Source of the DNA: Anaeramoeba flamelloides
Taxonomy: Eukaryota; Metamonada; Anaeramoebidae
DNA length: 64,000 nucleotides
NCBI GenBank assembly: GCA_027625915.1
Contig: JANTQA010000072.1
Location: 3,782,001-3,846,000 of the forward strand
Direction of reading: 5' to 3'
Below the pieces are notes generated by a model. The model was not told the origin of the DNA, made no database searches, and was given only the letters and a program-made list of their open reading frames with translations. This document shows, piece by piece, positions 10,576 through 62,931 of this stretch (positions are counted from its first letter, which is position 1; each line of letters opens with the position of its first letter). Both the position numbers and the translations under genes were made by a program.

Positions 10576-10618
<43 letters not shown>

Positions 10619-21700: not shown

Positions 21701-24454
21701 GTTTTTAATGATTTTGAGAGGAAAAATAAAAATGATTATTTTCTGATTGTAAGCAATTAATTTCTTAAACTGTTGAAAAATCCAAAATTTTTGAAATCAT
21801 CAATACTAAATACTTTTAAAAAATTGTCAAAAACCAATTTTAACCACCAAGGTTTAAGTGGAAAATTTTACTCCATAAAAGTAAGTGATACACATTCTAA
21901 ATCCTGTCTTAATTATTTGTTTTTTTTTCAAAATCCTAACCGTAATCATCCTAACATTTCATACCACCCAAACCTATCATGACCATACCTAACATACTCC
22001 AACATACTCTAACATTACCCGAAAAATGGTTTTTAATTTACACGATAAACGTTTTTTTAAATACCTACAACCAAATATATTTTAATAGAATTTGCTATTT
22101 TGAAAAAATTGAGAATATGACCAATTTTAAACACAAAGACCAAATTTGAAAAGTAATCATTTTTACATTGAGATACTGAGAATTTCTTTTTTTTTAATTT
22201 ATCAACCAAAAAAAGTTAACTTTACAATATCATTTTTAATGAGTAAACTCCTCCTTGATATAATTATGAGTCTAACTTAATGGTATTGACAATAAATTAT
22301 TGTTCGCAGCTACTGTGGGTTTCCTTCATAATTAACAACATTTTATCAAATATATTTTTGTTTGTATTTACAAATAGAAAAGTGTAAAAAAGTAACTTTA
22401 AAAAATATGGCGAATACAAAAACTCCTAAAAAGACAACAAAAAGGCTGAAATCCAAAAAATAACAATTGTATTAACAGTTTTTTTTCTTCACCTTTTTTT
22501 GAAAGGTGTGAAAAATTCAAACATGAATTGTTCCTTAAGGAGATCGGTAAAGAATAAATTATTTGTATAGCATTGAATAAAATACTAGACATGAAAATAA
22601 TCCCTGACACAATTTTTAAATGTTAATATTAGAGAAATTGCTGTGTAATTGCGAATAATTTCCTTTATTTTAGAATCAAACTTTTAAAATCATAACTCAC
22701 CCATTTATTAGAATGATGATTAATGAAATTACACTTGTTCAAAACAAGATTCAATCAATCAAAAAGCAAGAATAAAAATTATCATTTTCCAAATTCATAT
22801 CAAACCTCTAGAAAACTTTATTGATTTTTTCAAAAAAGGTAGATCTACTTATACTATCAAACAATTATTTGGGTATTCTATAGGCATCCCCACTTGAATG
22901 AACTTTAGGTAGGTTTATTACTTGGTTCATAAAAAAATTGGTTATTTATAAAAAGGATTTGATTTAAAATATTTGAAATTACATAGCAATTTTGCTAATA
23001 TTAACAATTAAAAATCTGGTCAGGTATTTTTTTCATGTCTATATTTGAAATATCAATGTTACACAATTTTCACGTTCTCTTTTCTGCTTTTCTTTTCTAC
23101 CAATAAGGTTCCTAAAAGAAATAGAATGTAATCTATTTTTTCTATTCATTTGTTTGGTATTTTTTTATTGAAAAATAATTGGGTATTTTGGGCGAAAGAA
23201 GAATCCTAAATAAATGAAAGGAATTTCGGAGCATTGAAAAAAGGATAATCAGTTGAGATTTTATACCAACTAAATTTCAAAAGCCATTACTGGTATTTGA
23301 ATTACAAATGGGAAAAAAAATTCACTTCCTGTTACATTTTCCTCTTTACTAATTAAAGTTCTCTAAGAAGTGTATTGTAATTTGTTTCTATTTAAAAAAG
23401 GAAATTGAAAATGAAATTAAAATTTTTACCATTTATAATTCAAATACCAGCATTGAAAAAAAAGGTTTTTGCTTTTAAATACTTTACTTTTATGTTTGTG
23501 GAATAATACCTGTAACAAAATTTTCATTCAGCTTTCCAAAAATAGTTTCTACAAAGATAAAAGTCAAATTTAAAGTATTAATTCACAAATTGGTTATATT
23601 ATGATTTTCCATTTTCCCAAAAAGGCTTTGATTTTTATTTTAATTCGTGGATTGTGATTTTTTGGAAAATATGATTGAAAATTTTGTTCCATTTATTAAG
23701 CAATTAACAATATATCCTCATTTGTGTGTAGACCAAATTAAAAGACTTTTATTATTCACAGTTTCAAAGTCGTTTAATATTTTTTATGTTGAAGGATCAA
23801 TGGTTGGAAAGAAAAGCAAAACAAGAAGGAAAAGATCCATAAAGAAAATATTAAACAAGGATAATTTACTTTAACAGATCGATTAATCGCTGCTGTTATA
23901 ATCATCACAGGGTAATTTGGTTGCAGCCCCCAGTCAAAGGCCCGTAAGCATGTATTTGCAACGATAATTTCGCTATGTTTCTGCCAAGTATCAGGCTGAG
24001 AGGGATCTTCTGCATGATAAATGTGAAGTATACCCGAACTGTCTGCAACACCAAGAACAAGACCAAGCTCGTCTGGTGAAAAGGAGATTTTCTGAATCGA
24101 GTCAGGTAAAGAACATACTGTTGTTTGTTGTTTCCATTGCAATTTCCCGTTTTCAAAGGTCTGTGAAATAATGACGACTTCGTTTTGAAAAGTGACACCG
24201 GCAATAACAGAACCAAAAGTTGATGGGCTCCAAGCGAGTTTCCAAATGTTTGTGTTTTCTTCTAATTCGAGAGTGAATGTTTCTTTCCAAGTTGAATCTT
24301 TATTTGAATAAAATTTTAAGCAATTATCTGACGAACTGCTTACAAGAATTGTTCCAGTTGGATCTATTTGCAAATCGTGAATTAGGTATTGGTGAGAAGT
24401 TAAAAAATTTTTAAGGGTTTTGTTTTCAATTGTTTCATTTGTTCGAAGAAGCAT
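18751..24454 (-). CDS. SEH1: Seh1 WD40 nucleoporin/SEACAT subunit; exons 24454-23870 and 19170-18751
   Basis: Predicted 334 aa, close to the roughly 360 of animal Seh1. Seh1 is a beta-propeller of the Nup84/Nup107-160 nuclear-pore subcomplex and of the SEA/GATOR2 complex on vacuoles or lysosomes. Exon 1 starts at an ATG giving MLLRTNETIEN and has SHQYLIHDLQIDPTG, NIWKLAWSPSTFGSVIAG and a LGLVLGVADSSGILHIYHA blade. Exon 2 has VGRDFHLIAISTEEALEIWK and SIWKLGWNETGNVLASTS...VKLWKSNLLGNW, matching the Seh1 C-terminus (human VWRVSWNITGTVLASS...RLWKANYMDNW) better than Sec13. A phase-0 donor (GTAAAT) after SVK and an AAAG acceptor before IWKF join to the WD strand SVKIWKF. The protein ends with an acidic Asp/Glu tail encoded by an ATC-type triplet run. 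Confidence 0.88.
19560..19760. repeat. Dispersed repeat (pair of 47660-47870)
   Basis: Shares with 47660-47870 the ordered blocks AAACTTAATT(T/C)CAAAAAT, TTGAATAATAATGTATTT, GATAATAACCA, TAGATTAATAAATAAAAAT and TTTTTTGAAAGATAA. Both copies have the same orientation. No coding function is evident. Confidence 0.7.
20376..21575. mobile_element. Transposon-like element with CGCGAT-rich inverted ends
   Basis: The left end (about 20376-20545) and right end (about 21465-21575) are arrays of ATCGCGAT/ATCGTGAT words and are inverse to each other. AAAATCGCGATTATT is shared at the outer ends, and CGCGATATTC.ATAAAATC.CGATAA inside. CG dinucleotides are otherwise rare in this noncoding DNA. The 0.9 kb between the ends has no intact frame, and no transposase motif was recognised. 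It sits inside the Seh1 intron. A non-autonomous DNA transposon or foldback element is the simplest reading; target-site duplications were not resolved. Confidence 0.6.
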
Positions 24455-26292
24455 TTTTTGGAAAAAGTAAGAAAGAAAAAGTAAGAATACAAAAATGAAA
24501 AAAAATGATTTGAACTCTGATTTTAAAATTTTAAGGGAGATGATTTTTAATATTTTCATTTCACCACCTTACGATTTCTTTTTTTAATATCTTTTTCATG
24601 CTATATACAAATAATATGATCCTTTTTATTGAAATTTATTAAAAGTTTTTGGTGTGTACATAATCTAATTATCTCAACTAAATTGGAAATTTTTTAACTT
24701 TTTTATTATTTCAGGATGATACATAATGTAGTAAATGTTAAACGATTTAAGAGAAATTTTCATTTTTCGTATTTTAAAAAATGTGGTTTGTTTTGTGGTT
24801 TTCGTAATCTTAATTATTGAGATAAATATATTTTTAAAGAAATATTTTTAAATTCAGTAAAAAATTAATACTGTCATTTTCCAATTGATAAATGAATATT
24901 ATTATTTCCAGTCCAGTAATAATTTGTTGTTCACTATGAAGAGAAAAAAATAAAAAGATCTTTATAAACTAATATAAATACATAGTCCATTATGAAATTT
25001 AACATTTATTTTGGTTGTTTATTTCATTTTTTATACAAAAAAAAAAAAAAAGTATTTAAAAAAACACATTGCTTTTTGGTTTTATTCAACATAAAAGTAT
25101 AATAATATTTTGATAAAAATTAGTTTAAGAAATGTTTTTCAAGCTATTATAATAAAATATAACCAAATTTCTATATTTATACATTAAAATTGTTAATTAG
25201 AATCCAAAAAAACAAATGATTGAATCATTAATTTGTCTAAAATTCCAAAAATTTTGACACTGTCAAAACAGTTGAAGAAATAACAATACTACACTTTACA
25301 TTCAATTTGGAAAGAATTTAGATTTTAAAAACTATTTCATTTTTTTTTTTTTTTTTTTTTTTTGTTTTAATTTTGTTTTTTGCAGTTGTGTAATTTATTT
25401 CGTTATATTCGAAAGATTTTTTCATTGATTGATAAAAGGTTAATGTTGAGTTTGTTAAATAGAAAAATCACATACAATTGGTTAATGATAACTAATCATT
25501 TAATTACCAATAATTATAAGGGAAATTTCAACATATTTACCAATAAAACTGTTTTGTGTAGCTCATTTCATAATTTTAGACAAACATAGATTTTTTTTCT
25601 TTAGTTTTAGATATATATATATATATTTCTTCGAAATGGAAATAATTACATATAAAAACATTTATACTGGGTTACTTAAACTTAATTTAATATTATATAA
25701 TAAAAATATAACAAATTGAGTGTTTTTTTTTTTTTACCTATTTTTGATTTTGGGTATGTCCAAATTTTTGAGAGGGGTTTATTATCTTGGTTCACAAAAA
25801 TATTCAATCAATAATACTCAAGAATATTTGAATAAAATTGAGAAGGTTTGACTTAAATAACCAATATCAAGCTTTCTTGCAAAAATAAATTCAAGAATTT
25901 GCTTCAAAATTCCTGAATGAATACCACAATTGAAACTAAACACCTACTAACATGGCTCTTTCTTATTATAAAATTTGTTATCTGGGAAATAATTACCCTT
26001 ATGAATCACATTGACTTTTTAATTTATACATTTGATACTTTGTTAATATAATTTCGTTTTCGCACTTTGAAAAAAAAAAAAAACAGCAAAAATATAAAGT
26101 TAAGCATCTATAAAACTCATTAAGAAATAGGTTTTTGAAAATATTTGTAAAATATAGTACTGAATTTTATTATTAAAACAATTAAATAATGTAAAAAGAA
26201 AAGACTAATATTTTTCACTTTTTTATATTATAGCATTTTTCAAATGGTTTTAAGTTGGAAATTGTAAAATATTATTATGTGTTCTAGCTTGT
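24455..26292. other. Intergenic region, no gene recognised
   Basis: Between the Seh1 start and the FANCM stop codon, both on the minus strand. Contains A and T runs (25340-25362, 26069-26085) and a short AT tract near 25611-25626. The open stretch at 25380-25589 has no family match. Confidence 0.6.
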
Positions 26293-29200
26293 TTAAAAGG
26301 TGAAATCACTTCCACTGTCATTTATAATAGTTTCCATTTCGGTTTCATAGTCATCTGATATGGGTTCTTCACTTGGTGTATGAAACTCACTATCATTAGA
26401 AGGGGTGGTTTTAATATTCATATTTTCATCACTTCCAAAGGCAAGAAAATCTTCAAGAGAACCTAGATTTGAATCCTCGTTTGAATAGGTTTCTGAAGAT
26501 AAGTGAGTTGTTTTTGCTTTTTTTTTTTTTTTCTGCTTATTTTTTTTCTTATATTTATAATTATATTTTGGTTTAAATGTATTTTTTTTTAAGGATCGAT
26601 TTTTATTTTTCTTTTTAATTTTTGAATTTGGATTTTTATTGAATTCATGAAATGTTTGATAATTCTCATTATTTTGAACATTAAAACTATGAAATTTAAA
26701 TTTGTTATTATCATTGTAATTTTGTTTAAAATTGAAATGCTTCTGAATTTTATTAGCATGATAACTATTGTTATTATTACCTTCATTGTCTTTGTCAATA
26801 TGATAAAAATTTCTTAAAAAGTTTTGTTGATATTCGTTTTCTATTGATTCGTTAATAGTGGAATTGTTATAATCATAGTTATCATTCAGTTGATTCTGAA
26901 ATTGATGATGACTCTCTTGTAATTGTTGTTGTTTTTCTTTCATTCTTTCTTCTTGCAGTACCTGTTTTTCTTGCTCTAATTCATGATTTATTTGGTTCTC
27001 CCTAATACCACGATCGGTAAGGGTATTATCTTGAGAATGATTACTTTTTTCAAAGTTTGGATCTTGTGTATACTTGTATCTTGAAAAAATGTTTCTGTAC
27101 TGAAGTTGGGGTTGTGGTTTGCACTGATCATTTTGCGAAATAATTCCCTTTCCAAATGAAGATGAACTTTTATCATTTTCATCAGGATTTAAATTCATTT
27201 CCGGATTTTGTGGGTTAAAATTTCTCCGCTCATAATCACCACCATAATTATGCTTTGTATTTATCTGTTCAGCCCCGACATATTTATCAAAGTTGGAAGT
27301 AGTTTTATTCATCAAATTATTACTATTTGTCGATTTGTTATGATTTATTTCTTCATCATTACATTCGCCTTCATGATTAGAATTATTTTCAAAATATTTA
27401 TTATCATCAATATCTAAAATTTTGGGATTATTTTCTAATAATACCACGTCATCCAAATATTCGACATTCATTATTTTTTTTGAAATGCCCATTAATATAT
27501 TAGTTAAAATGGAATGGCCAAACAAAAAAATTGGTGAAGTGTTATATTGTTGATTAACAAATTTTGTAAGTGACAAATTGGGAGATAAAAGAAGAGAATT
27601 TAAACGATAATTGTTATTAAAAAAAATCTGTTCTGTGCGATTTAAAAAGATTCCCCTTTTTTGGAAAGGAGTGGAGAAATTATGAAATTTATGCTCATTA
27701 TTAAAATTATTCGTTTGCTTGAATATATTTTTTTTCTGTTGTTTTTTTTTTTTTTTTTTCGAGAAATAAAAGATTCCATTTTTATTAGTTTTTAATTCAA
27801 AATCCATCAAGTCTTTCTTTTTTTTCCTTGTTTTCTTTTTTTTTCTATTTTTATTCTTGATCTGGTTTTGAGGATCCTTGAAATTTTCAAAACTGTTTTT
27901 TGAAATTAAAAATTTTTTTTTGATCAGCTTTATATTTTTTGGTATTTTCTTCTGATTATTTGTAAAAAACACAAAATTCTTTTTTTTAGAAAGGATATAT
28001 TTTAAATTTTGTTGTTTATTTTGATTGATTAAATATTTTTTTTCTTCTCTTCCCTTAGTTAATAGCACAACAACTTTTCCCTTTCTAATTCTACCTGTTC
28101 TTCCAAATCGTTGAATAGTTCTTCTTGTATCAATTTGGTAATCAAAACAGATGATCAGGTCCACCTCGCCAATATCGAGCCCTTCTTCTCCAATTGAAGT
28201 AGAGATTAATGTATTATAGTTCCCCTTTTTGAAATTTTCAATAATTAATTGTTGCTCTTTTTGGCTTAACCCCCTTCGGTTTGGTTGGTCCTTTTGCCCA
28301 ACAAAGGGCATTGCTCGAACATAAGGTATGTTTGAAAGCGCTTTTACAATATCTAAAACACTGTCACGATAATTTGAAAAGATCATCACTTTCGTTTCTT
28401 TGGGAGAATTTTTAAAATGGTTGATAATTATTTCTTGCAATTTTATTAATTTTGGATGCCCTATTTGAGTTTTTTGATTCGATACAATATCGGTTAATAT
28501 TCTTAATAAATGTTGATATTGCTGTGATTTTTTAAATTCCTTTTTATAATAATTTTTGATCGATGGGTTTTCATATTTATTCAAAAAAAATTGGTATAAG
28601 GGATAAATCCCATAATCTAAAAATAATTCATAGCCATGGATTAAACTGCAACATAGATTAAATTTATTTAATTCCTGAAAAGAATTTTTTTTGACATCTT
28701 TGCCAGAGAGATTCTTTTTTGTCTTTTTGAATCTTTGATAAGAGGAAAACAGTGAGCCCTTTGATAATATCTCTAGATTGGTTGTGTGAATTAAATTTTG
28801 ATCATACAAGATTTGTAAATTGTCAACTAGGGCACATTTTAAAAGATTCAAAATATTTCCAAAATTGGGATAATTTTCAATCGAAATTGGAATTGTTTCG
28901 ACCAATTTTTCAAAGATATAGGGAGATAATGAATTTTTTGGATCTTTATTTGTAATTTCATTTTCAAACCGGATCTCTAATTTTGAGATTAATAAATTTG
29001 TGATGATCTGTTGGATGTTCTCTATTGTGTTTCCAGGTGACGCAGTTAACCCCAAAATTCGAAATTGATCTGTAAATTTGATAATCTTTTTAACAATATT
29101 CACATATGCATAGTTGCCACTCGCCTTATGCGCTTCATCAAAAACCAAACACACAACATCCTTTGCAGCAGAGCAATTACCATTTTTTAAATCGTTGTTA

Positions 29201-29902
29201 ACTGTTTGTGGTGTTGCAAAAAAGACTCGTTTTTCTTCGTACAGCTTTTTCCTTAATCCTGGACTCACATGCCCAGTTAATTCACAAGTGTACTTGCTGG
29301 GAAACCCGACAGTTTTAAAGACAGACTCTAATTGCTGATGCACCAGGGGCTTGGTTGGCGCTAAAAATAGGATTTTGCCCGTTGGAAACCATCGGTAATA
29401 ATTATACATCACAACAGCAGCAATAAATGTTTTGCCAAGCCCCGTTGGTAAAATGACTAACGTGTTCTCAAATAATACACTTTTTGTGATTTCCAATTGA
29501 TAATTTCGAATTGGGTAATTCGTCGGATAATGCCATTCTTGGCATTCTTTTGGATCAATTTTCGGAAGAATTTCACGATTATAAATGGAATTAAATTTTA
29601 AAAATTGATTCAAGAGATATTCCTTTTTTGTCTGTCGGATTTCTTCCTCTTCTTTTTCTAGTTCTTGTAGTTGCTTTGGTTCACAAAATAAATTTTTAAA
29701 TGCTCCATTGTCATTATGAGTCTCACTAAAGGAATGAAATTTTATTGGGTTCCTCCGGTTAAGGGTTTGTTGGTAGAAATATCGATTCTGATTATTCCCA
29801 TTGGCTGTGTGGTTTTGTTGTTGTTGTTGTTGTATCTGTTGTTGTTGTTGCTGCTGTTGTTGTAATTGTACTTTTTGTTGTTGGGATTGTTGTAAAAACT
29901 TC

Positions 29903-29935
<33 letters not shown>

Positions 29936-30711
29936 AATTGCTGTTGTTGCTGTTGTTGTTGGGATTGTTCTTCTTGTAATTGCTGTTGTAAAAACATCTG
30001 TTGTTGGTGTTGTTGGAGTTGATTTAATTGAATTTGGTGATTAGTTTGTTGTCGTTGTTGTTGCTGTTGTTCTTGTTGTTGGAAAACAAACATTTCCTGT
30101 TGGTGGGTTCTATGTTTGTTTTTGTTTCGGTTTTGATCCTGGTTTTTCATATTATTGTTCTTTATTTGGAAATTATTTTCATTATATGCGAATTGAATTG
30201 GCATTTTTTGTTGTTGGTTTGGAGTAGATCCAATTTCATTTGAAAGTTCTTGAGAAAAGACAAAAGTAGTCTTATTTTGTTTTTGTTCTTTTTCTTTTTC
30301 TTTTTCTTTTTCGCTTTTTTTTTTTTGTTGTGGTTGCTGTTGTAGTTGTGGTAGTGGTTTTGTAAGGTCTAAAAAAGTTTTCTGAGTGATTTGTTTGTCT
30401 TGTTTTTGTTGAGGTATTGTGGTGTTTGTTTCATATGAATTGGTTAATGCTAGTTTTAATTGATTTTCTCGATATTTTTGAAAAAAATGTTTTAGTTTTG
30501 GTTGATCCAAAAATTTCTTTGAGTCGTTATAGAGTGATTTGTTATCGTCCAGTTTTACTTTAGTTCTTTGAGAGTTGTCATTTATAATTTCTCGATGATT
30601 AAATCTAAAGTTATTCTGTAGAAAGATTTGTAAATTTTGATGCTTGTTATTATTACAAGTATTTGTGTTTTGGGTTTTATTTGTTTTAATTTCTGTTTGG
30701 TTATAGATCAT
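26293..30711 (-). CDS. FANCM: FANCM/Mph1-family DNA helicase-translocase (1472 aa)
   Basis: FANCM/Mph1/Fml1 proteins remodel stalled forks and D-loops using a superfamily 2 helicase core. The order here is a Gln-rich N-terminus with long poly-Gln runs (about 211-305), then QEWHYPTNYPIRNYQLEI (about 385) opening the helicase core. Walker A LPTGLGKT is at 421-428, the DEAH box (FDEAHKASGNYAY) at 525-528, and motif III is LTASPG. A helical insertion separates the RecA lobes, as in this family, and motif VI QRFGRTGR is at 867-874. Block after block matches FANCM, e.g. MYNYYRWFPTGKILFLAPTK. Residues about 900-1472 are Lys-, Asn- and Gln-rich with an acidic tail; no ERCC4 nuclease-like or helix-hairpin-helix domain is visible, which is closer to yeast Mph1 than to human FANCM. 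Single uninterrupted exon, stop TAA. Confidence 0.94.
29795..30090 (-). repeat. CAA/CAG tract encoding poly-Gln in FANCM
   Basis: Dense TTG triplets on the plus strand encode uninterrupted and near-uninterrupted Gln runs on the minus strand. The tract is polymorphism-prone, remains in frame, and lies before the helicase core. Confidence 0.9.
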
Positions 30712-38927: not shown

Positions 38928-40433
38928 TTAACCAAAAGGATTTTTAATTTTAGTGATTTCGTGCTGCAATAAGACTACCAATAGAGATCCCGCGATATAA
39001 ACGAGCTTTAACACTGTCGATTGGTAAATTGGGAAATCAAAAAGAGTGAATCCCGTATAGGGGTGATTCAGCCAATTATCCAAGTAGGTATACCACACTG
39101 CGAGTTGTTTGCCCTTTTCTGTGGTGTAATTGGTAATTTTGATGCCCGTCAAGTCCTTGATCAAATTCATACAGGCGGAGCTAATGCCAGCTGGGAACCA
39201 AAGCATAAACAAAATTAAAAACAGATAGATACACACGGGTATCAGCTTTGTGGAAACGGTCTCAAAATCTGTAAAGGCCATATACACGGTTGTAACCGTT
39301 GAAATGATGTACACTGCTGTCACAAAGGCTAAAAACTTTTCAAAGATTTTCCCCGTGAGCAAAATTCCTTTTCTGATGGAGATATGGTAATTGATGGCGT
39401 TTGGTATCGAGAGGTGCCCCTCCAAAAAGATATTATGAAAGACCTTGATATGAATTTTATGAAGCGAAGACACAAAGATGATCAGAAGGATGGAGAACAC
39501 CACAGTTGTAAATTGAAACCAATGCGCAATCGAGGACAGCACGAGATCAACACAAAAGGAGACGGGCTGCTTGGAGATCTCCTTTCGTAAATGCGGCTGC
39601 AAATAGTTTAGCAACTGGATCAGTGTGCCAACGATGGGGAACATTTTTAAAAATCTTATTGAATGCTGAGTGTACCGCGCAAGCTTTGGCCCGTTTTCGG
39701 GGCACTGGAAAAACTTTTTTAATAAATTATTAAAATGCGGCTTGCGGAAAAACGAATAGCTAAAGACCCAGCAGATGATCGGGATCAGCGAAAACAGAAA
39801 AAAGCCTATAGAGCTAAGTGCCGTGGTGTTTGAGGTTTCCCAAAACCCTGGAATCGGGTTGACACCAAAAAGCCAGTCTCGCGTCTTTGGCTTGATCACG
39901 GCGTTCAGTAATGAAAAGATTTGCGAGATAAAGGAATACAAAATCATTACCATAACCGCGATCCGGATGAACACCCATTTTATGAATTTCTTTTTTGATG
40001 GGAATTTTAATGTGCGGTGGTACTCGACACAATAGATCGAAAGAATGTCCAGCCACTTTTGTAAGGTTTGGAAAAAAAGCTTGTTGTGCCGATTTGTGAA
40101 GTCTTGAATCAGGAAAAAGTCTCCGTTGATTTCATTATGATCTTCACATTTCTTAATATCGATCGAGTCTTCGCTTGAGTGCTCTGTTGTATCAGAATTT
40201 TCTGTATAACTACTGCTATCAGTACTAACATCCTTATCCCCTTTTTCACTTTCAGATTCCTTTTCATCTAATTTTGTTTTTTCTTCTTTTTGATTCAAGG
40301 GATTTTTTTTTTTTTTGAAGGTAGATCTCCGCTTGCTGGTTTTTCGACTATTTGTGGTCGGTGGCTGAACCATTAAATCTAAAAACGCAGTGTGGTTTGT
40401 AGGTAAAAAATCAAAGTCAAGTTGTTGGTTCAT
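38928..40433 (-). CDS. Seven-helix membrane protein, gustatory-receptor-like (GRL) candidate (501 aa)
   Basis: Residues 1-140 are polar (Lys/Ser/Glu-rich) and probably cytosolic. Seven hydrophobic segments follow at about 153-176, 205-229, 259-279, 295-322, 366-388, 397-420 and 473-491. The C-terminus, YTGFTLFDFPIYQSTVLKLV followed by LLVVLLQHE, resembles the last helix of insect gustatory receptors and their protist GRL relatives (a GFF.ID...L.S block, then TYLV.L.QF), though the TY pair is replaced. A long N-terminus before seven helices also fits the inverted-topology GRL fold. If correct it would be a ligand-gated ion channel in the plasma membrane; that is inference. Central coding DNA is much richer in G+C than its surroundings (31 of 60 bases at 39541-39600). 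An unrelated polytopic protein is the alternative. Single exon, stop TAA. Confidence 0.85.
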   Translation of the reverse strand: MNQQLDFDFLPTNHTAFLDLMVQPPTTNSRKTSKRRSTFKKKKNPLNQKEEKTKLDEKESESEKGDKDVSTDSSSYTENSDTTEHSSEDSIDIKKCEDHNEINGDFFLIQDFTNRHNKLFFQTLQKWLDILSIYCVEYHRTLKFPSKKKFIKWVFIRIAVMVMILYSFISQIFSLLNAVIKPKTRDWLFGVNPIPGFWETSNTTALSSIGFFLFSLIPIICWVFSYSFFRKPHFNNLLKKFFQCPENGPKLARYTQHSIRFLKMFPIVGTLIQLLNYLQPHLRKEISKQPVSFCVDLVLSSIAHWFQFTTVVFSILLIIFVSSLHKIHIKVFHNIFLEGHLSIPNAINYHISIRKGILLTGKIFEKFLAFVTAVYIISTVTTVYMAFTDFETVSTKLIPVCIYLFLILFMLWFPAGISSACMNLIKDLTGIKITNYTTEKGKQLAVWYTYLDNWLNHPYTGFTLFDFPIYQSTVLKLVYIAGSLLVVLLQHEITKIKNPFG

Positions 40434-49808: not shown

Positions 49809-52800
49809 ATGAGTTCTTTTCGATCGATACTGAGGCGCAAGAACCAAAAAGACACTGAAAGTGATCGTGTTTCGAAAAATAAAAGGAATTTGCAAGTGTT
49901 GCATAACGAAATTGACAAATTAGATTTAAATGGTGGCAAAAATAACACATTCCGAGGATTGGTTATTGAGTTAGAAAAGCAGTTTGATGTGTATCAAAAG
50001 TGCGACGGATCTGAAAAAAAAAAAGAGAAATTGTTGAACAAAATGATGAATAGCTTTGCAAGCACACTTCGAAAGAATAATTCGAATGTCCAATACTTTG
50101 GGGCAAGTAATAATTTATGTTCCATTTTGATTAAAAGGCATTTAACAAGCCTTGAAGAAGCACTAGAAAAACAAAATCTAAAATTTCTCGATCGATCGCT
50201 TATTTCTGAAAAAGAAGAAAATTTTGAACAGTCTTTGCTATTAATCCATTGCATTCAAATACTAACATTTGATCAAAGAAATAAAAGTCTCTTTATTTCA
50301 TCAAAGTTTTGCTTACAAATACTAAAATTACTGATCTTAATTTACGATGAAAACGAAAAAGTAAAGAAAAAAAAAAAAAAAAATGAGAAAAAAATAGAAC
50401 TTCCAAAAAGGCTTTTAACTGAATTTGGGTTAATTTTATATAATTTGTTTAAATACCGTTTAATTTTTGAGCAAATTATAAGGATTAATAACAGCAATAA
50501 TTCAATTATTCACCAAATACTTTTATTACCCATAATCTGTTTTCGAAAGATTACACAGTCTTTATTTATTGAAGGTCTTTATCCCAACAAAGTATATCAT
50601 TATTTTGCCGAAAAGCGTCTTATAAGAAAAATGGTTAAGGAATTGCAAATTACAAATTCTATTGATCAAATTAATCATATTGTTTATAATTTTTTCTTAA
50701 TTTTCAATTCGGTCTCCAAAAGTAAAAGCCAAACGATATCAGGAGAAAAAAATATCAAAATGTTTTTAAAAGAAAAAGTTTTTGGCATTCTTGAAAATAA
50801 AATTGAACTATTCTTAAATTTGAATTTAAATATAAATAACCAAAATGAAAAAGATAAAGATAAAGAAAAAGAAAAAGAAAAATATAAAGAAAAAGAAAAA
50901 GATAATGATAAAGAAAAATATCAAGAACAAACAATAAAGAGAAAAAATTTTCAAAAATTTATTCAATCAATTTTGAAAATAATCTTTATCAATTGGCAAT
51001 ATAAATATTATAAAGACAATTTTAATGAAGAAAAAAAAAAATTATTAACAAATTCTAAGAAATATTTCAGTTTATTATATAATAAATTGATTAAATTAAA
51101 CAAACATGTAATAATAAAAATAATTTTTGATCAATTAAATAATATCATAATTCACAACAGTGATCCAAATCTTTTCCCAATTAAAATAAATATATTAAAG
51201 GAAATAATAATTAAAATAAATGAATTAAATAAAGAAAATATTGATCTTTTATTAAATATTATCTTAAATTTCTTAATAATAAATATTAATAATAAAAAAA
51301 TCAAGGAAATATTAACAATTTTAATTGATTTTTTAAATACCAACAATAAAAAGACAACAGAGACAGTAGAAGAAGAAGAAGAAGATTTAAAAATTATAAT
51401 TTATAAATTTTTAATAAATTTAATGAAAAAAGAAAATAAAATAAAATTAATTTTAAATGAAACAAATTTAATTACACTAATTTTAAATAAAATGAAAATG
51501 ATCTCAAAAAATAAAATTGAACATAATAATAAAAATTCATATCATGGATTCTGCTGTTTATCTGAATTAGTTTATAATTGCCAAAAAAATTTTCAATTTT
51601 TTAAAGAAAATGATGGGGATCAAATTTTATTAAATCTCATCAATATTCAAGAATATCAAGAGGATTTATTTTTAATTTATAAAAATATAATTATTCAAGA
51701 TCAAAAACAACAATATAATGATTTAAAAGTTTTGTTACAATACTATCAGAATAATGATGTTATTAATATTCATAACAGAACACGATTATTAAAAATATTT
51801 TACAAAATCTTTAAAAAAAATTTAAATGCAAAAATTTTATTTTATAAGGAAAATGGTTTCGAAATTTGTTTAAATCAAGCTTTCGTTGATTTACAAAACA
51901 AGGCATTCTTTAAATATACAAAGTTAACGATTAAAAACATAATACTTTTATTAAAGTATTCTTTAACTGGCTGTAAATTAATACAAAGATATTTTAAAAA
52001 TACCTTAGTTCTTAAAATCAAAACATTAATCATCAATTATATTAAATTCATTAACAAAAGCAACAACAATAATAACAATAAGAAAGAAGTAGAAGAAAAA
52101 GAATTAATTAAGAAAATAATTATCAAACAATTAATTAATCTTAGTATAGATAATAATAAAAATTTAAAATATTTACAATTAATTTTAATTCTTCAAGAGT
52201 CGATCAAAAACAATAATTTTAATGATGATCTTAAATATTTTTTTTTACAAAATATTTTATTATTAGTTAATGAAAGCAGGCTCAACAAAAAAAAATTGAA
52301 TGGAATTAACATTTTAAGTTTTATTATTAATGAATTTGATTCATGTATATTAAAAGCCGATAATAAAATTGGGGGAATTTGTTTACAAATAATTCAAAAT
52401 ATTGGCTATTATTATTTTTCTTCCAAAAATTTAAGAAAATATTTTAAATTATTTTTAATACCCTTATTAATTAACAACCAACCCAATACAGAGAATCAAA
52501 ATAAATCATTAATCAATATTGTAAAAAATTTACGAAAAATGATATCAATTGGAGAATCACCTTCTTATTTCGAAATTGATCTTCGGGAGAAAAAACCTGG
52601 TAGAATAATACTTAATGCATTATTAAATGACAATTTAACTGACAAAAATCATAACTACAATAGTAATAATCAGATGGATAGTATGGAAATTTATAAAAAT
52701 AACAACCATAATATCAACAATGTAATGAATATTAATACTTTGGACAAAAATGAAAATGATGGAAATCAATTAATTTGGCCAAAAAATACTTCATATTCAA

Positions 52801-55800
52801 TTTCTTTATGGTTTTATTTAGATTATTTCAACCACAACCACAACCACAACCACAACAACAACAACAAAAACAATAATGACAATGATCTAAAACATCAATC
52901 GTCAATCTATTTATTTAAAATGATTAGTAAAGATCTAAAATTAATTTATATATTATATTTAAAAGGAAATAAATTATTTCTCCGAACAAACAAAAATTCC
53001 TTTTATTGTTTTAATAATTATCAATTTTTAAAAAATCAATGGTATCATTTAGTATTGGTACATCAAAAATCAAGACTAGGACAAGACAATTGTTCGTTAT
53101 ATATTAACGGTGAATTTATTGAAGATATGAAAATTAATTATCCAAATTCTTCAAATTCCAATTTTTCAATAATCATTGGTACACCAAAGGAACTAACTGG
53201 AATTAACAAATTAAATATAAAATACAAAATTGGACCATTGTATTTTTATGATTCCATTTTAACCAGGGAAAATATATTTTTATTATATTTATTAAATTTT
53301 TACTATAATGGTTCATTTTTGGGTGACTTAAAATTATATCAAACTTATGATTTTATAAATTATGAGAATTTGTCAAAAATTGAAAATTCAAATTTAAATC
53401 CTAAAAATATTAGAAAATTATTTAATTTACAATTTGCAAATCATCCCTTAGTTAATGATAAAATTTTTTTAAATTATAATTTAGATCATATCTCATTTTT
53501 AAATAAGAAAAAAAATACAAAATTTAGAAAAATTTTAAAAAGAATTGATAATGAGAATAAAGTTAGTAATAAAAATCAAAGAAATTCACAATTTTCAATA
53601 AAACCACCAAAGATAAATAAATTTTTTAAAATTAAAAAAAAAAAAAACACTGCCAATGAAGAAAATAATAATATCATTAACAAAATTAGTAATGATGGAA
53701 ATGAAAAGGGAAAAGAAAGTGTAAATAAACAACAACAAAACACCAATAAAGAAAAGGATAATACAAGCAAAAGTAAAAATAAAAGCCAAAGAAAAAATAA
53801 AAGCAAAAGCAAAAGCAAAAGCAAAAAAAAAAAAAAAAGAAAAGCCAAAAGAAAAGAAAATAAAAAAGAAAATGAAAATGAAGATGAAAAACAAAAAATG
53901 ATATTAATAAATTCTATTAATAGTAAAGGCTTACCAATCGGTTTTATTCAAGGTAAAGTTAATTATTTTTTAAATAATAAAAATTGCAAAAACCAATTTT
54001 TGTCTATTGGCGGTATATTAATTGGATTAATGCTTATCGATTTATCCAACGATTCGGAAATGCTGAGGGAATCTATTAAAATTATTTCTAATTTAATTAA
54101 AAATAACTATATTTATTGTAACCAATTCAAAAAAATCGGTACATCTTCGATAATCTCCAATTTTTTATCATTAAAAATTAATTTAATTGACGAAAATAGT
54201 ATTAATTTATTATTTCAAATGAGTGGATACGATAAAAACTTGAAAAATAGAAATCAAATATTTTCGAATATTGCAGTTATTAAAAATATACTGTTTGAAA
54301 GAACAATTTGGAAGCAATGCAAATTAGATCTACAATTAGCATTGTATGGAAAAATATTAATATTTATCAACAAAAAAAATAATTTTAATAGTTTTAATAT
54401 TGATATATTAAGGAATTTAAATTTGATTGATAGGGTCTGTTATATATTAATGGAAGAGAAAATAAATAAAAAACTAATATTAATATTACTCAAAATAATA
54501 AGAATATTTATTAATGATCAGGTGGTTGATCAAGAAATAAAAAAACTAATTGACTGTATTTTATTTTTAAATTCTAAGAACAACGTTGAATCAAATGAAA
54601 TAATTGAACTATTATCAGACGTATTTTTGGATTTAGTAAAGAAATTAGAAAAACAAAAGGACAATAAATATAATCAAAGTGATTCAATTAAAGAAAAAAT
54701 TAATAATAAAATGAAAATCAAAACAAAGGAATTAATTATTTTGAATAAATATTTTAATTATAATTATTTCTTTTCAAAAATATTTTTGAAAAAAAATTTA
54801 CAAGAAAATAAAAAAAAATTTCAAATAAAGATTATTTCAATTGTAATTTCAATATTAATTTTTAATAATCAATATTTAACCCAATTTAAAAATAATAATG
54901 GCATTAAATTATTAATTCAAATTATTTCTCATTTTAAAAACCATAAAATTGTTTATTACCTATTATTTTCATTACTATTGAAAATCCCCATTTATAAAAT
55001 ACCGAAATTTTCTTTACCAGAACTGTCAAAAACACAATTAAGACAATTTTTATTTCAAAATAATAATAAATTTAATAAAAATAATCAAAATAATAATACA
55101 AAAATATACAGTACCAACATAATTTATGGTATTTTTGAATTGATACAATCCCATAATATTTATATTCTTTTAAAAAACACTAATAGCGAATGGAATGAAA
55201 TTATTAAAAATATTTTCCATTTTTTAAGTATTTTAATTAAACATTCAAATGATTTCCATGCATTGTCTTGCAAAAATAAATTTCTCAAACACATTTCAAA
55301 ATTGCTATTTTTTGAAAAAAATAATACTGAATTTATTCAATTTAATTATATTTTTAGATTAATTACCGAAATAATAATTAAAGGAATTGAAAATTTAATG
55401 AAAATCGACCAACTCATCATTAATATCTTTGATTCTCCTCATATTTTATTAAATAAATCAATTCAATTCACATTCAAGAAAGTTATTTTCAAACAATTAA
55501 TTACTATTTGCCAGCAAAAATATATTAATGTTGGATTATCGATAACAAATAAAAATAGTTCCATTAATAAAGGCAGTAAAGGTAAAATTAAAAATAAGAC
55601 GAAAAAATTTAAATATAATCTGAAAAATTTTTTAAATTTTAATCCAAAAATTTTTAAAATCTTGTTTAATTTAACAAAATTAATTTCTAATCAACTTTGT
55701 CAAGGTATATTGACCGATTTAGAATTAGAAATATTGTTGTTTATTATTGATTTAAATAAAATTTTTTGGAAACTAAATCCTAATTTTTCAATACTTGAAG

Positions 55801-58800
55801 TAAAAAATTCCATAAATCGAAATAATTTATTAAAAACTTTAACAAAAAGTTTATTTAAAAGTTTATTTTATAATTTTCGAATGTTGTTAACAATTGGAAA
55901 TGATAATGATAATGATAATGATAATGAAAATGATAATGAAAATGATAATGAAAATGATAAAGATTTTGAAAAAAAAAATGATGATGAAAAAGTCAATAAT
56001 AAAATAAAAATTGTAAAATTATTAAATTTAATAAAAAGTAATAAAACTATCTTTCTTAATAAACAAACATTTAATTTAAATTATATTAAAATTTTAATTT
56101 CAATTTTAATCACTTTTTTGGATACTAACAAAAAGAAGAATAATGAGAAAGATGAGAAAGATGAAGAATTATTTAATTTATCAATTGAAATTTTAATTTA
56201 TATATTAAATCAATTTGATGACAAAAAAAAGGAATTATTTCAATATAAAGAAAAAGAAAATATCAATAACTTTTTGGAGGAGGGTTTTAATTTGTTAATA
56301 ACTGATATCAATAAGTTTAAAGATTTAATAACAACCGATTCCAATCAATTTTTTACAAAAATTCAAAAATATTTTTTAAAAATATTATTAGATTATTTTG
56401 AAAAAAGGAAAATGAAATCGAATAAACAAATGAAATTAGATTATCAACAATTCGAAAAAAGTTTAGAACTAAGAAAAAAAAAAGAACTTCAAATAAATAA
56501 TATTTTTAATCGTAATGAAATTAAAAGTGAAAATGAATATGACGAATTTCTTAATCATTTAAATAAAAATTTTCAAAAAACAATAATTGAACGAAATGAT
56601 AGGTTTAATTTTTTAAATTTAAAATGGAAAAATTTGAAAAAAGAATTATTCACCGAAAGGATGATTTGGAAGGATTTATTAGATAAAAAAGATAAGGTAC
56701 AGAGATGGAAATTAAACAGAACTCAAGGAAAAGATAGAGTGAGATTAAAATTAAAAAAAACTGAAAAAATTAGAGTTTATCAAGCCAAAATTTCAAAAGA
56801 AGAAGAAGAGGAAATAGAAAAAGAAAAAAAAAGAAAAATTGAGCTGGAAAAACAAAAAGAAAATGATAAGGAAAATGAAAAAGAAAAAGAAAAAGAAAAA
56901 GAAAATGAAAATGAAAATGAAAAGGAAAAAGAAAAAGAAAATGAAAATGAAAAGGAAAATGAAAATGAAAAAGAAAAGAAAAATAAAAAGGAAAAAGAAA
57001 AGGAAAATGAAAATGAAAATGAAAATGAAAATGAAAATGAAAATGAAAAAGAAAAAGAAAAGGAAAAAGAAAAGAAAAAGGAAAAAGAAAATGAAAATAA
57101 AAAAGAAAATGAAAATGAAAAGGAAAAACCAAAAAATGAAGATGATGAAGAAAAAAACGAGAATGAAAGTAATTTAATCCAAAAAGAATTAATTCAACTC
57201 TCCAGAACTTTTGAAGCATCAAAAAAAAAAAAAAAAAAAGATAATGAGAATAAAAATGAAAAATTATTAAATGATTTTGATTTTATTGAAGAAGAAGAAA
57301 TGAATTCGATCAAGCAATTAGAATTAAAAAATTTAATCAAAAAAATCCAAAAAGATCAAAGAATTTTAAGATATTTAGAAAGAAAAGAAGAAATAGTTTT
57401 TAAATTTAATTGTTCGAGGATAACCGAGTTAGATTCCACTGTGGCAATATGTTTAATATCGCAAAAAAACATTTATTTGATTGACAACTATCGAATTAAC
57501 ACTGAAGGCGAAATTGAAGAATTTTTTAAAAAGGAAGAAAACATTTGGAGTAGTACTTCAAAACAAAAGCAAACGGGCGAAAATGCTAAAAACAATAAAA
57601 AAATCAAAAAGCATAAATGTATCAAAATACCGATTCTGGAATTAAGCGATTTGAAAAAAAGGAGATATTTATTACAAAAAACAGCTTTAGAATTTTTTTC
57701 GCATGAAGGAATCAACCATTTGATTAATTTAGATAATTCAAAAACAGTCAAAACCGTTATCAAAAAAGTTTCTTCTTTATATATTAGCCCCGTTGAGGGA
57801 ATGGAAGAAATAGGTATTTTTGGCACCGTTGAGAATTTTTTAAAGCCTGTTAATAAATCGAAATTATGGGAAGACGGGTTAATTTCTAATTTTGAATATT
57901 TGATGTATATCAATTCTTTAGCTGGTAGAACTTTCAATGATCTAACGCAATATCCTGTTTTCCCTTGGATTTTATCAGATTATGATTCAAAAGATTTAGA
58001 CTTGAGCGATCCAAATGTCTATAGAGATTTATCAAAACCAATGGGTGCCCTAGGCAATGATAGAGCTGAACAATTTAAAATGAGATATGAAAATTGGGAA
58101 GACCCTTCAGGGCAAATACCTGCGTTCCATTATGGCAGTCATTATTCAAGTTCTGGAATTGTTCTTTATTATTTATTAAGATTGGAACCGTTTACAAAAT
58201 TATTTATTAAATTTCAAGGTATGTATTGTTTTTTTTTTTTTTTTTTTTTTACTTTTTTTTCTTTTCTTTTTTTTCTTTGATTTTAACGCTAGATAAGACA
58301 ATTGGAAAAAAATATTATTATAAAATTCGCTATTTCGAAAAAGATTTGCAAAAAATTACTTCCAATTGAAAAAAAAAAACCTATTATTATTATTTAAGGG
58401 AGGGGCTATTAATTCCTCTTGTTTGTCGTTAGGTTTTTTTTGAGTTTTCTATTTATTTGTGAAGTGTTCTAGGTTTTTTAGGTAGAATAGAAAACCTCAA
58501 GAAAATTACGCTAGGTTTTTTTATTTTCAGAAATAAAACGAAAACTCAAAAAGCCTAGAACACTTCACAAATAAAATAGAAAACCTCAAAAAAACCTAGA
58601 AAAATTCACAAATAAAATAGAAAACTCAAAAAAACCTAACGAAAATCAATAAATTTTACAAAAAAAAAACAAAAAAACCTCAAGAAAACCGAAGTTAGCT
58701 TTTCCATAATTTAAAAGAATTGAGTTTAATCTTTGATTCTACTCTATTATTTTGAATTAAAAAAAAACCTAGGCACTTGACGACACTCCACGGAACTTCA

Positions 58801-61800
58801 GGAATTCTTAAATTTTTATTTAGGAATTTTATTAAAGACTCAAAAATAAGTTTATTACACACTAAGGCTAATAAGTATAATGAATCTTTTTTTATAATAA
58901 TATTGAAAATATTATTTTTTTTATAATAATATTCGAAATATTATTATTTTTTAATTCAGATATAAAGATTTTGCCGATTATTTTCATAGGCTGAGCAATT
59001 CCATCGAAAATGGTCTAAATCTTCAATAATTTCTAAATTTTTTTATTTTTTTACATAATTCACAATATTTTAATTTATTTTTAATTATAACATAATAATA
59101 CTTGTTTAGGTAATTTATAAAATTTCGAAGTTTTAAAATTGAAGTTGAACCCTTCCATTTTAAATATCTTTTGTATTTAGGGTTTTTTTTTTTTAAGAAA
59201 CAAACCGAAAATTTCCTAATTTAGCTTTTTGTTAATTTTAGAAATTAAAAAAAAGCCTAATTACATTTCTAACTTGAACTGTTTTCTAAATTTTTAATTC
59301 TGAAATTTTCTCGTTCATTTTCTAGTTATTTTAAATTTTTCGAATACCAATTAATATTTTCTGATTCTTTTTTTCTAAAAGGGAGATAATTAATTAATTC
59401 ACCAAAATCGAGGATTTTTAATTTTTGAATTAACTTAAATCTTCTTTTATATATCGTTATTCTGAAAGGATCAATTTTTACTTCTGTTTTATAAATAAGC
59501 CTAGGGGAGTGTGGATTGATTAACAAAAATTTTGTTATTTTTTTTTATTAATCCAATATATCAATATCTTGAAAATCTTTTTTTGTAGAATCAAATATTT
59601 CTAACCCATATAATAATTGGCTATGTAATATAGCTTTAAAAAATTGAATTTTTAATCCATTAGAAAAATTTTTTGTTATAAGATATTGATTAATTTTTTG
59701 AAATTGGTCATAACTTTATCTAGGTTTAATTTTTAATGAGTTTTATTTAATAAGCCAAATACCAAGATATGAAATTTCCTTTGGAATTAAAGTTTTTTTA
59801 GTTTTATCATTTTTGGAATTCATTCCGAAATCTCTGATTATTTTATAGATTTTTTCGAATTAATAATTAATTTCTCTTAATGATCCTTTCATAAGTAAAA
59901 TTAGATCATCTGCAGACATTTTGACATGTAATGTCAATAATTTGACTTTTTTCTAAGAGAAAATGAGAAATAAATCCAAATAATTAAGGAGATAATGGAT
60001 CTCTCTGATAAACACCAATTCCTTCTTTTGGTTAATAAGCAAATAAATATTTTACAATAATTTCATTTTTTATAAATTTTTTAATTGAATAATAAATCAG
60101 CGAATGATGAATAGAGTCAATTTTTTTTTTTGGATATATCTATTGTAACGATACAAATATTTTCTTTCTTAAATTTTTTTTTTATTTTTTTTTTGAATTC
60201 AATAAGTTTAGAACTGCAATTCTGGCATCTAATTTTTTTTTGAATCCAAATTGTTTTTTTGAAACTAAACTCTTTTTCAATAAAAGGGAATCAGTTTTAT
60301 TGAAGAAATAGAACGCATTCTATGAGTTTAATTAATTATTCTTCTCAAACTAAAATTTCAATTTTTTAATCAAAATCATTTTTTCTCATTTTGGTAAATA
60401 GAAATTTTTTTGTATTTTGCTTTTTTACTTTTTTTTTTGTTTTTTCTTTTATTTTTTTATTAAAAAATTTAATTTGAAAAAAAAAATGTTTGAAACTCAA
60501 AATTAACATAAAGAAAAGTGAGGCGTTGTATGTTCTTATGTAAAATCCATACATTTACAAGTAAAAAATCTTATTGTAAACAATTTAAATTTTCCAAAGA
60601 AATTGAGAAATTTTGCACGAGAAATTACCAATATTAAAGTAACCAAAAATTTTTTAACATTTTTTTTTTTTGAAATTTATGGTTTGTTCAGACTTTTCTT
60701 TAGTGATTATCGACTCCAATACAAAGCTTATTATTTCTCTCATTTCTAAACAATCTAAGTTTGGTTGATTCTTAAAAATAAAGTCACTTTTTCATTTTTG
60801 GCTGGGACCCTTTGGGTGAAATGGAGTTTAAAATCAAGATTTTTAATTTTATTTAAAAAGAAGTATACTTCCTATCTATTCTTTGTAAATTTAAAATCAA
60901 GATTGATTAATTATTTTTACTTTAAGATGATTTTCAGAATTATTAATGGTAATGGAACTTTTTTTTTCTTTAAAGGTCAATTTACCAAAGATAAGCAAAA
61001 TATTTAATTTTCAAAATTTTTACAAAAAACAATTGTAATGAATCAAAGTAATTTTATTTTTACAAAACAATTTTTCGATTTTTCTTCTTTTTTTTTTTGA
61101 TAGTTTAAAGTATTTAAATTAAATACATAATTGAAACGATCAAAACAACAGAAAAATATTATTACAATGGTGATTTTCAATATGTTAACATGTTCAAAAA
61201 GATAGTTAATAATGTTAATATATTTAAAATCAGAATCGCATGTCTTTATTTCAAAAATTTTTTTAAAAAAAGTTATTAATCCAAACTTGTCTACAGAATT
61301 ATACTTAAAAAAAATATTATTCATAAAATTTAATCTTTGAATTTAAAAAACTCTCTTATTTTGAGAATCGTAATTCTAATGAATTTGTCCAATTCATTAA
61401 AAGAAAAAATTAAAAAATACAATATAAAAAAAAAAAAATAATAATGACTTAAATATATTAATAATACAATAAAATGAATAAAAAAAAAACTAATTAAACA
61501 ATAGGTGGGGCATTTGATCATGCTGATAGATTATTCCAATCTATAGCAAAAACATATAAAGCAGCGTCCGGCGAAAATATGAGCGATGTAAAAGAATTGA
61601 TACCTGAGTTTTTTTATATGCCAGAGTTTTTAAAAAATCAAAATAAATATTATTTTGGTAAAAAGGCTTCTAATCGAGAAATTGTTGATGATGTGGAATT
61701 GCCTCCATGGGCAAATAATGATCCATATGAATTTATAAGGATCAATAGAATGGCACTAGAATCTGATTATGTGAGTGAACATCTGCATGAATGGATTGAT

Positions 61801-62931
61801 TTAATTTTTGGATATAAGCAAAGAGGCGAGGAAGCAGCGAAGGCGTTGAATGTCTTTTATTATTTAACGTATGTTGGTGCTGTCAATCTGGATAAAATTG
61901 AAGATGAAGTAGAAAAGACATCAATTATTGCACAAATTAATAATTTTGGACAAACACCTATCCAATTATTTAAAAAGCCACATCCAAAAAAGAAAATTAA
62001 TAAGAAAAAAAAAAAATTAGTTATCTCTTCAAATCCAAATTCACTTGAATCAGAAATTGTTCATGAATACACTGAAGCTATTGGCAATATTGATATAAAT
62101 ACAAATAATCAAGTTTATTGCCTTGGAGAAAAAAAATTACTAATCCCAAACACTTTCAAATATATATCTTGGAATAATTCAGACCATTCGCTTCGGTTTA
62201 AAACACTTGAAGGGGATTACGATTTAAAAGTATATGAAAATATGCATTTGGGCAAAATTAACTCAGTAGCTGTTGCAGATTGTGGTAAATTGGTAGTTAC
62301 CGGCGGCACTGATTCGGTGATTAATTTCTGGAGAAACAAATATATAAGAAACAAGCAAACTTTAGTTTTGATTAACACTTTTATTGGCCATAAAAGCGAA
62401 ATTACATCCTTAGCGATTTCAAAAGAATTGATGATAATAGTTTCTGGATCAAAAGATAATTCTTGTATCATTTGGGATATTGGGAATTTGATCTTTTTAA
62501 GAAAACTTGAAAATTTTTCAAACACAATTTGCGATATACAAATAAACCATTCGACAGGCGAAATCATTGCTTGCTCAAATTCAGAATTGAAAATTTGGAC
62601 AATAAATGGGAATTTGCTTGCCAAATTGCAGAATGTTAAAATACCAATTACCTGTATCAAAATGACAAATATGGGCGAACATAATAATGATCATGTTTAT
62701 ATCACAGGCCACATCGACGGATCAATCTCCTTTTGGGCACTGATACATAAAAATGGCATTCGTTCTTTTAAACAAATATTTGTAAAAAAGATTTCAAATG
62801 TTAAAATTTCTGCATTGTACGTCTCATTTAATAATCAAATTTTATATACTGGGGATCAGAATGGTAATTTATTATCTTGGAAAATTCCGAATAACGAACA
62901 AAATCTAAAAAAAAATTATGATTTGCTTTAA
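49809..62931 (+). CDS. ALFY/LvsA-type BEACH-WD40 protein (3278 aa); exons 49809-58218 and 61505-62931
   Basis: BEACH proteins are giant scaffolds for membrane traffic and autophagy. The order here is a long helical N-terminal region; a concanavalin-like domain at about 988-1165 (SYSISLWFYLDYF, NQWYHLVLVHQKS, CSLYINGEF); more helical repeats; a Lys/Glu/Asn tract at about 2337-2447; a PH-BEACH domain at about 2530-2660 (FNCSRITELDSTVAICLIS); the BEACH domain at about 2686-2965 ([91 protein letters not shown]); and C-terminal WD40 repeats. The PH-BEACH part is closest to ALFY/WDFY3 and LvsA, but no FYVE finger follows the WD40 repeats. A GTATGT donor after FQ and a TAG acceptor at 61502-61504 rebuild the BEACH block FQGGAFDHADRLF. 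Stop TAA. Confidence 0.93.
56815..57150 (+). repeat. GAAAAA/GAAAAT hexamer tract encoding Lys-Glu-Asn repeats
   Basis: Near-perfect hexanucleotide repetition encodes alternating EK and EN pairs between the helical region and the PH-BEACH domain. It is likely a charged single helix or coiled linker. Confidence 0.9.
58427..58800. repeat. Hairpin repeat with duplicated arm and CCTAGGCAC end
   Basis: The left arm 58427-58480 is the inverse of two consecutive, roughly 45-48 bp right-arm copies (58551-58597 and 58595-58641), each containing TTCACAAATAAAATAGAAAA. The outer words CGTTAGG and CCTAACG are exact inverses. The downstream block to 58800 ends in CCTAGGCACTTGACGACACT followed by CCACGGAACTTC. 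The 8640-8935 copy is its reverse complement. Confidence 0.7.
59326..60265 (-). pseudogene. Decayed non-LTR retrotransposon reverse transcriptase, copy A
   Basis: Reading the minus strand, recognisable reverse-transcriptase blocks appear in the proper order but in shifting frames. They are QFGFKKKLDARIAVLNLL (motif 2a), IVTIDIS...DSIHH (motif A), GIGVYQRDPLSP followed by a stop and LFGF (motif B), SADDLILLMKG (active-site motif C, with Ala where Tyr or Phe is usual before Ala-Asp-Asp in the family), and YLGIW. A thumb-like region with LLYGLEIF follows. At least three frameshifts, mostly at A runs, and several TAA and one TAG stop interrupt it, so it is inactive. Its orientation is opposite to the host BEACH gene. 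Nothing like an RNase H or endonuclease domain was recognised. Confidence 0.8.
60266..60840 (-). mobile_element. Upstream part of non-LTR relic A
   Basis: Continuous with the reverse transcriptase remnant and aligned with 38098-38690. Its minus-strand frames preserve FFNK..SLLLKKSLVSKK just before QFGF, as expected for the fingers region, and further upstream a Lys-rich and hydrophobic stretch is shared with the 38-kb copy. Confidence 0.65.

Follow-up and report, generated by a model that had tools for sequence, protein, structure and literature searches.

A candidate 7TMIC/GRL membrane protein family in the metamonad Anaeramoeba with a predicted fold resembling insect odorant and gustatory receptors

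In a 64,000-nucleotide stretch of the Anaeramoeba flamelloides genome (contig JANTQA010000072.1, positions 3,782,001 to 3,846,000; the window), a single-exon gene at 38928..40433 on the minus strand, stop codon included, was found to encode a 501-aa membrane protein, P0001, which is likely a member of the 7TMIC/gustatory-receptor-like (GRL) superfamily and probably a tetrameric gated channel. Its 7TMIC-like fold was assigned with high confidence, its function as a gated channel is considered probable, and a role as chemoreceptor of external cues is put forward tentatively. The preliminary description of this DNA had suggested a divergent relative of insect odorant receptors (ORs) and gustatory receptors (GRs) in an amoeba-like protist. 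That suggestion was largely right, judged by the structural comparison and the lack of a competing profile: the best matches of P0001 by structure were known 7TMIC members, and by sequence no other family reached its cut-off. Neither a fold unlike that of GRs and ORs nor a strong profile match elsewhere was seen. The host is amoeba-like as proposed, Anaeramoeba being a metamonad and not an amoebozoan.

The structure was predicted by AlphaFold2 for P0001 and for P0006, a relative from Anaeramoeba ignava; the family further includes P0002, P0003 and P0004 of A. flamelloides and P0005 of A. ignava. The P0001 model contained seven membrane positions, the seventh divided, as in Orco, into S7a and S7b, and S4-S6 measured 41-49 residues, which in the model is lengthy enough to extend beyond the membrane. 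The seventh helix was also split in the P0006 model (S7a at 404-418). The Orco-like packing, the long transmembrane helices TM4-TM6 and the division of TM7 into 7a and 7b, by which 7TMIC members are recognized in PMC7746228 and PMC9998090, were all present in the modelled structure. When solved structures were searched with Foldseek, the leading 20 rows for one model and 22 for the other consisted entirely of insect ORs and GRs, as did the 20 best rows of the VIA alignments for each model. The GR/OR-like fold of the preliminary description was thereby supported.

All parts of P0001 are encoded on the minus strand, and the helix limits were taken from the model. The polar N-terminal tail, rich in Ser/Thr and charged residues and predicted to be disordered, comprised residues 1-106 (40116..40433; model and alignment). 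It had been noticed beforehand and proved real, with model confidence below 50 at residues 1-113 and 129-144; a DFLPTN..AFL block near its start was common, with changes, to the four A. flamelloides proteins. The first three helices were S1 (residues 147-179, 39897..39995), S2 (202-230, 39744..39830) and S3 (247-281, 39591..39695), followed by the long helices S4 (290-338, 39420..39566), which presumably contributes to a cytosolic anchor domain, S5 (343-388, 39270..39407; model and alignment), in which Tyr384 was invariant in 6/6 members, and S6 (390-430, 39144..39266). The short S7a (438-455, 39069..39122) is the section of the divided seventh helix that presumably belongs to the anchor, and S7b (471-495, 38949..39023; model and superposition), the presumed pore helix, carried Lys476, Ser483, Val487, Gln490 and His491. 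The last-helix block quoted in advance, GFTLFDFPIYQSTVLKLV and then LLVVLLQ, was located at residues 461-478 and 484-490, with YIAGS in between.

The open reading frame (ORF) of P0001 filled exactly 38928-40433 from ATG to stop, and an intron was unnecessary. The longest ATG ORF was 170 aa in 50 random 64-kb sequences whose GC content was matched to the ORF and 108 aa in 50 shuffles of the window; an ORF of 501 aa is therefore not a product of chance. The N-terminal start MNQ..LD.DFLPTNHTAFLDLM was shared by P0001 and its closest paralogue (517 aa). Over the last 395 codons, the nonsynonymous rate (dN) between these two was 0.050 and the synonymous rate (dS) 0.50-0.70, and the second closest pair gave a dN of 0.077-0.078 and a dS of 0.62-0.80. 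The low dN relative to dS in both pairs indicated purifying selection on the membrane part. By its ORF, its paralogues and this selection, P0001 is a real gene in which amino-acid changes are strongly disfavoured.

All relatives found for P0001 belonged to the genus. With P0001 as query, a set of about 5.8 billion proteins yielded five rows, namely P0001, three others from A. flamelloides (82, 53 and 53% identity) and one A. ignava protein (36%), and a profile of those five sequences found no further relative up to E 10 in the same set. The second A. ignava protein, P0006 (48% identity to the query), was found with P0005 as query alone, in a search whose scoring was limited to the 7,994 candidates with the most words in common. 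No relative outside Anaeramoeba was returned by the protein searches with P0001, the profile or the A. ignava query, the last two reaching up to E 10. Within the genome (254 Mb, 76 contigs; the window lies in contig C72), at least four matches were located, with 100, 85, 55 and 55% identity; the paralogue on C21 was identical to the deposited P0002, and that on C29 differed from the deposited P0004 at one of 478 residues. The four genome copies and two A. ignava proteins are lower bounds. The relatives ranged from 462 to 517 aa, in keeping with the approximately 350-500 aa expected of the family. In gene order, the surroundings of three paralogues, compared with the window over about 8-9 kb per side, had nothing in common with it beyond the gene, its opposite-strand frames included, and short matches scattered between. 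The deposited names of P0002, P0003, P0004 and P0006 (anillin/rhotekin rtkn, p17/29c-like, ras guanine nucleotide exchange factor k) were unsuited to these membrane proteins and were perhaps transferred via the low-complexity N-terminal tail; such names conceal the family from name-based searches.

In a six-member tree, with midpoint rooting only and long A. ignava branches, P0005 and P0006 were set apart from the A. flamelloides proteins with full support, and the latter formed the pairs P0001/P0002 and P0003/P0004. Given this split, the duplications probably occurred separately in each species, as far as the sequences indicate. The tree also bears on the origin of the family. Anaeramoeba genomes are described in PMC11550330 as rich in laterally acquired genes, and the failure to find relatives outside Anaeramoeba would fit a true 7TMIC gained from another eukaryote, a proposal that concerns origin and not mechanism. 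The counts in the table of that paper are for groups that include prokaryotic or viral sequences and so say little on transfer between eukaryotes. Against a transfer, no donor-like sequence from beyond the genus appeared in the searches up to E 10, and the family lies deep within the genus, the copies of the two species separating with full support. Such a transfer is judged improbable.

Profile comparison gave a weak link to one known family. P0006 matched DUF3537 (PF12056) with an E value of 2e-5 and 24.0 bits, residues 223-407 aligning in order with positions 116-306 of the 391 in the profile, and the protein database lists PF12056 for P0006 as a precomputed entry. Ten shuffles of P0006 within ten-residue blocks, which kept the hydrophobic pattern, produced no DUF3537 match. 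A weighted six-member consensus, which depends on P0006, also matched (E 0.0015, 17.9 bits, profile 119-243). DUF3537 was absent from the 15 families matched by the five members of profile A1 up to E 10, and the Phtf models of Pfam matched none of five members up to E 10, nor P0006. The P0006 match may be regarded as a lead towards DUF3537 that falls short of membership. The DUF3537 and PHTF profiles had been named beforehand as the searches of interest: DUF3537 answered weakly, through A. ignava P0006, and P0001 itself matched neither. The four other members searched against Pfam gave a best E value of 0.0019.

Further profile candidates were rejected. DUF1168 reached only E 0.22 for P0001, below its cut-off. 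DUF2207_C was found in 2/5 members (best E 0.0019; for P0001, 8.3 bits over residues 61-231, cut-off 33) and was set aside because about half of the matched P0001 span is the polar tail. NF038033 matched the Ser/Gly-rich tail of P0003 (E 2e-5, 23.5 bits against a cut-off of 250), which was ascribed to composition.

The pore residues of insect receptors were used as a guide to S7b. Passages of PMC11100771 describe F444 and I440 of BmGr9 as the gate, Q443 as swinging into the pore on opening and T436 and T429 as hydroxyl rings; they give L473 in Orco and V468 in MhOR5 as equivalents of F444, and state that insect residues at the T429 position are mostly polar or charged. The gating Gln corresponds to Gln467 in MhOR5 and Gln472 in Orco in the relevant part of PMC8410599. 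The register was read from eight of the 20 OR/GR rows per model (6c70_A, 7lic_A, 7lid_A and BmGr9 8uvu, 8uvt, 8vv3, 8vc1 and 8vc2), chosen as those whose numbering ties to these two papers, and was counted gap-free from the last aligned VIA pair, which assumes no terminal gap and native numbering in the entries. Gln490 of P0001 fell on the gating Gln in 6/8 rows and Gln454 of P0006 in 8/8; the two misses of P0001 were off by one (7lid_A, where the alignment stops two residues short of Gln490, and 8vc2_A). The T436 position was Ser483 in P0001, with Ser in all six members, and the I440 position was Val487, with Val or Ile in all six. At the F444 position, P0001 has His491 (H, H, S, S, N and K across the members), and at the T429 position Lys476, with Lys or Arg in 6/6; this basic residue is unusual but not impossible, since the insect residues there are mostly polar or charged. 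On the modelled register, the family retains the gating Gln, the hydroxyl and the inner hydrophobic ring, whereas its outer plug consists of polar residues and its pore has an additional basic ring. Tyr384, close to the outer end of S5, may be the counterpart of BmGr9 Y332.

The topology was also examined. The preliminary description had counted seven hydrophobic segments; the structure model agreed, with its seven membrane positions, whereas a hydropathy scan of five members gave between six and eight, namely 6 in P0001 (TM3 below threshold), 7 in P0002 and 8 each in P0003, P0004 and P0005. The N-terminus is presumed cytosolic from the superposition on Orco, the one source of this orientation. 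With the N-terminus inside, the presumed inner loops of P0001 had 32, 42 and 55 residues and the outer ones 29, 30 and 11, longer loops inside being a feature of the family. Because hydropathy varies from 6 to 8 and the charge bias is slight, the seven-helix, N-inside reading leans mainly on the model.

Several of our results weigh against the assignment to the 7TMIC superfamily. Searched against Pfam and NCBIfam (the latter scan covering P0001, P0003 and P0005), P0001 met no model at cut-off and matched none of 7tm_6, 7tm_7, DUF3537 and PHTF, and a PDB sequence search with P0001 and the profiles A1, A3 and A4 matched no receptor chain. The DUF3537 score of P0006 was just below the curated cut-off of 25. 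In the TM7 motif (T/S)Yhhhhh(Q/K/E)(F/L/M), which PMC7746228 in its treatment of the motif terms diagnostic though not definitive, just 2/4 named positions agreed, the Ser and the Gln being invariant and the Tyr and the Phe/Leu/Met absent in 6/6 members. The numbers of Lys and Arg in the presumed inner loops versus the outer parts were 16/129 versus 9/82 (P0001), 16/129 versus 6/82 (P0002), 18/129 versus 8/77 (P0003), 17/129 versus 7/77 (P0004), 13/128 versus 10/76 (P0005) and 16/128 versus 10/77 (P0006), a positive-inside bias that was weak in all four members from A. flamelloides and ran the other way in the two from A. ignava. Model confidence was modest: the mean predicted local distance difference test (pLDDT) of P0001 was 60.0, with no residue at or above 90 and a predicted template modelling score (pTM) of 0.58, the other four models of that job were worse (43.1-50.6), and P0006 gave 63.4 and 0.64. 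The predictions were fed by 5-6 sequences only, five of them common to both jobs, AlphaFold2 may be familiar with insect receptors from its training, and the Foldseek TM-scores were middling (0.38-0.50 by query length and 0.46-0.67 by target length over the 20 OR/GR rows). The few sequences, the modest pLDDT and the lack of a significant match of P0001 to any known family would also suit convergence or a habit of the predictor, in which an unrelated seven-helix protein was drawn in the remembered shape of Orco; this explanation is considered very unlikely.

If P0001 is a 7TMIC channel, four subunits, contributed by a single paralogue or by more than one of the four, would assemble via the S4-S7a anchor, with the S7b helices lining a central pore. 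A signal received in the outer S1-S6 bundle would be relayed through S5 to S7b, where the conserved Gln490 would swing into the pore, like its counterparts in MhOR5 and BmGr9, and open the ion path. Given the polar outer gate and the Lys/Arg at the inner pore position, closure would probably be achieved by the inner Val/Ile ring (487), and permeation may differ from that of the insect cation channels. The same two features also suit a protein that has the 7TMIC fold by descent without being a ligand-gated channel and has another job in an internal membrane, as PHTF and plant DUF3537 proteins may; so do the borderline link to the functionally uncharacterized family DUF3537 and the occurrence in at least four genome places and at least two A. 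ignava proteins with no large receptor repertoire. This non-channel role is thought unlikely: the gating Gln and pore Ser are invariant in 6/6 members with no obvious need in a non-channel, the split seventh helix is present in both models, and the insect T429 position, in the account of PMC11100771, is itself mostly polar or charged, so that Lys is compatible with a channel.

The kind of channel proposed here is already known, and the metamonad host lineage seems to be new within the openly licensed literature searched. The main texts of PMC7746228 and PMC9998090 did not contain Anaeramoeba, Metamon-, Trichomonas or Giardia (other metamonad names were not searched), and no link between 7TMIC and Metamonada stood among the matches listed in the openly licensed literature, which excludes the survey of Himmel, Moi and Benton 2023 (Current Biology). 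So far, arguments about the age of the superfamily of insect smell and taste channels have drawn on members scattered among protists. Because metamonads are distant from animals and plants in the eukaryotic tree, a family there bears directly on whether these channels came from a common ancestor or by later transfer; the Anaeramoeba family would support a channel type predating animals. More speculatively, and with rather low probability, it may be the first 7TMIC family of Metamonada; together with the members known from animals, plants and other protists, it would strengthen the case that the last eukaryotic common ancestor already had such proteins. A channel whose outer gate is polar and whose pore holds four Lys/Arg in a ring would then be a 7TMIC of non-canonical permeation, for instance one that passes anions or is plugged by lipid, in a unicellular host with internal sulfate-reducing symbionts. 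Being small, well conserved, encoded by one exon and present in a protist that is in culture, the protein offers a practical route to the role of such channels before noses and tongues.

Other coding regions were also recognized in the window. A BEACH domain was spread over two plus-strand ORFs, 49809-58280 (2823 aa), which ends in PH_BEACH and BEACH profile positions 2-117, and 61579-62931 (450 aa), which starts with BEACH positions 142-276 and continues with WD40 repeats; by their sequences these are probably one BEACH-WD40 gene with an intron or insert of about 3.3 kb between them. On the minus strand, a 1967-aa ORF (9534-15437) carried a C-terminal HECT ubiquitin-ligase domain (E 7.9e-72), a 1472-aa ORF (26293-30711) carried DEAD/ResIII and Helicase_C with no further Pfam match at E 0.01, and a 261-aa ORF (23774-24559) gave WD40-type matches (WD40 PF00400, E 1.6e-6, 28.8 bits, cut-off 27). 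The GC content of the coding regions L001-L004 was 0.38-0.40, and 0.45-0.50 at third codon positions (GC3); 2-kb bins of the window ranged from 0.17 to 0.32.

Compared with known systems, the Anaeramoeba family stands apart from the unicellular GRLs of Thecamonas, Vitrella, chytrids, Protostelium and trypanosomes (GRL1; Benton 2020, Benton & Himmel 2023): no sequence relation to them was found, and its host is a metamonad. Unlike trypanosome GRL1, no MORN repeats were reported by Pfam. With PHTF it would share the 7TMIC fold proposed for that protein in the relevant part of PMC9998090, and the two were set apart by Pfam profiles alone, through the lack of a Phtf match. With plant DUF3537 (PF12056), the partial matches of P0006 and the family consensus, under the curated cut-off and not seen for P0001, form the common ground, and the TM7 motif was better kept in Anaeramoeba than in the plant proteins, where PMC7746228 in its discussion of the motif calls it largely unrecognizable. 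Identity to insect ORs and GRs (Orco, MhOR5, BmGr9, Gr43a, Gr64a) was only 7-14% in the VIA alignments, and the family differs from them in its long disordered N-terminal tail, its missing motif Tyr and Phe/Leu/Met, its polar outer gate and the Lys/Arg at its inner pore ring. It is like them in the predicted fold over about 340 residues, in the split seventh helix, and in the Ser and gating Gln of the TM7 motif.
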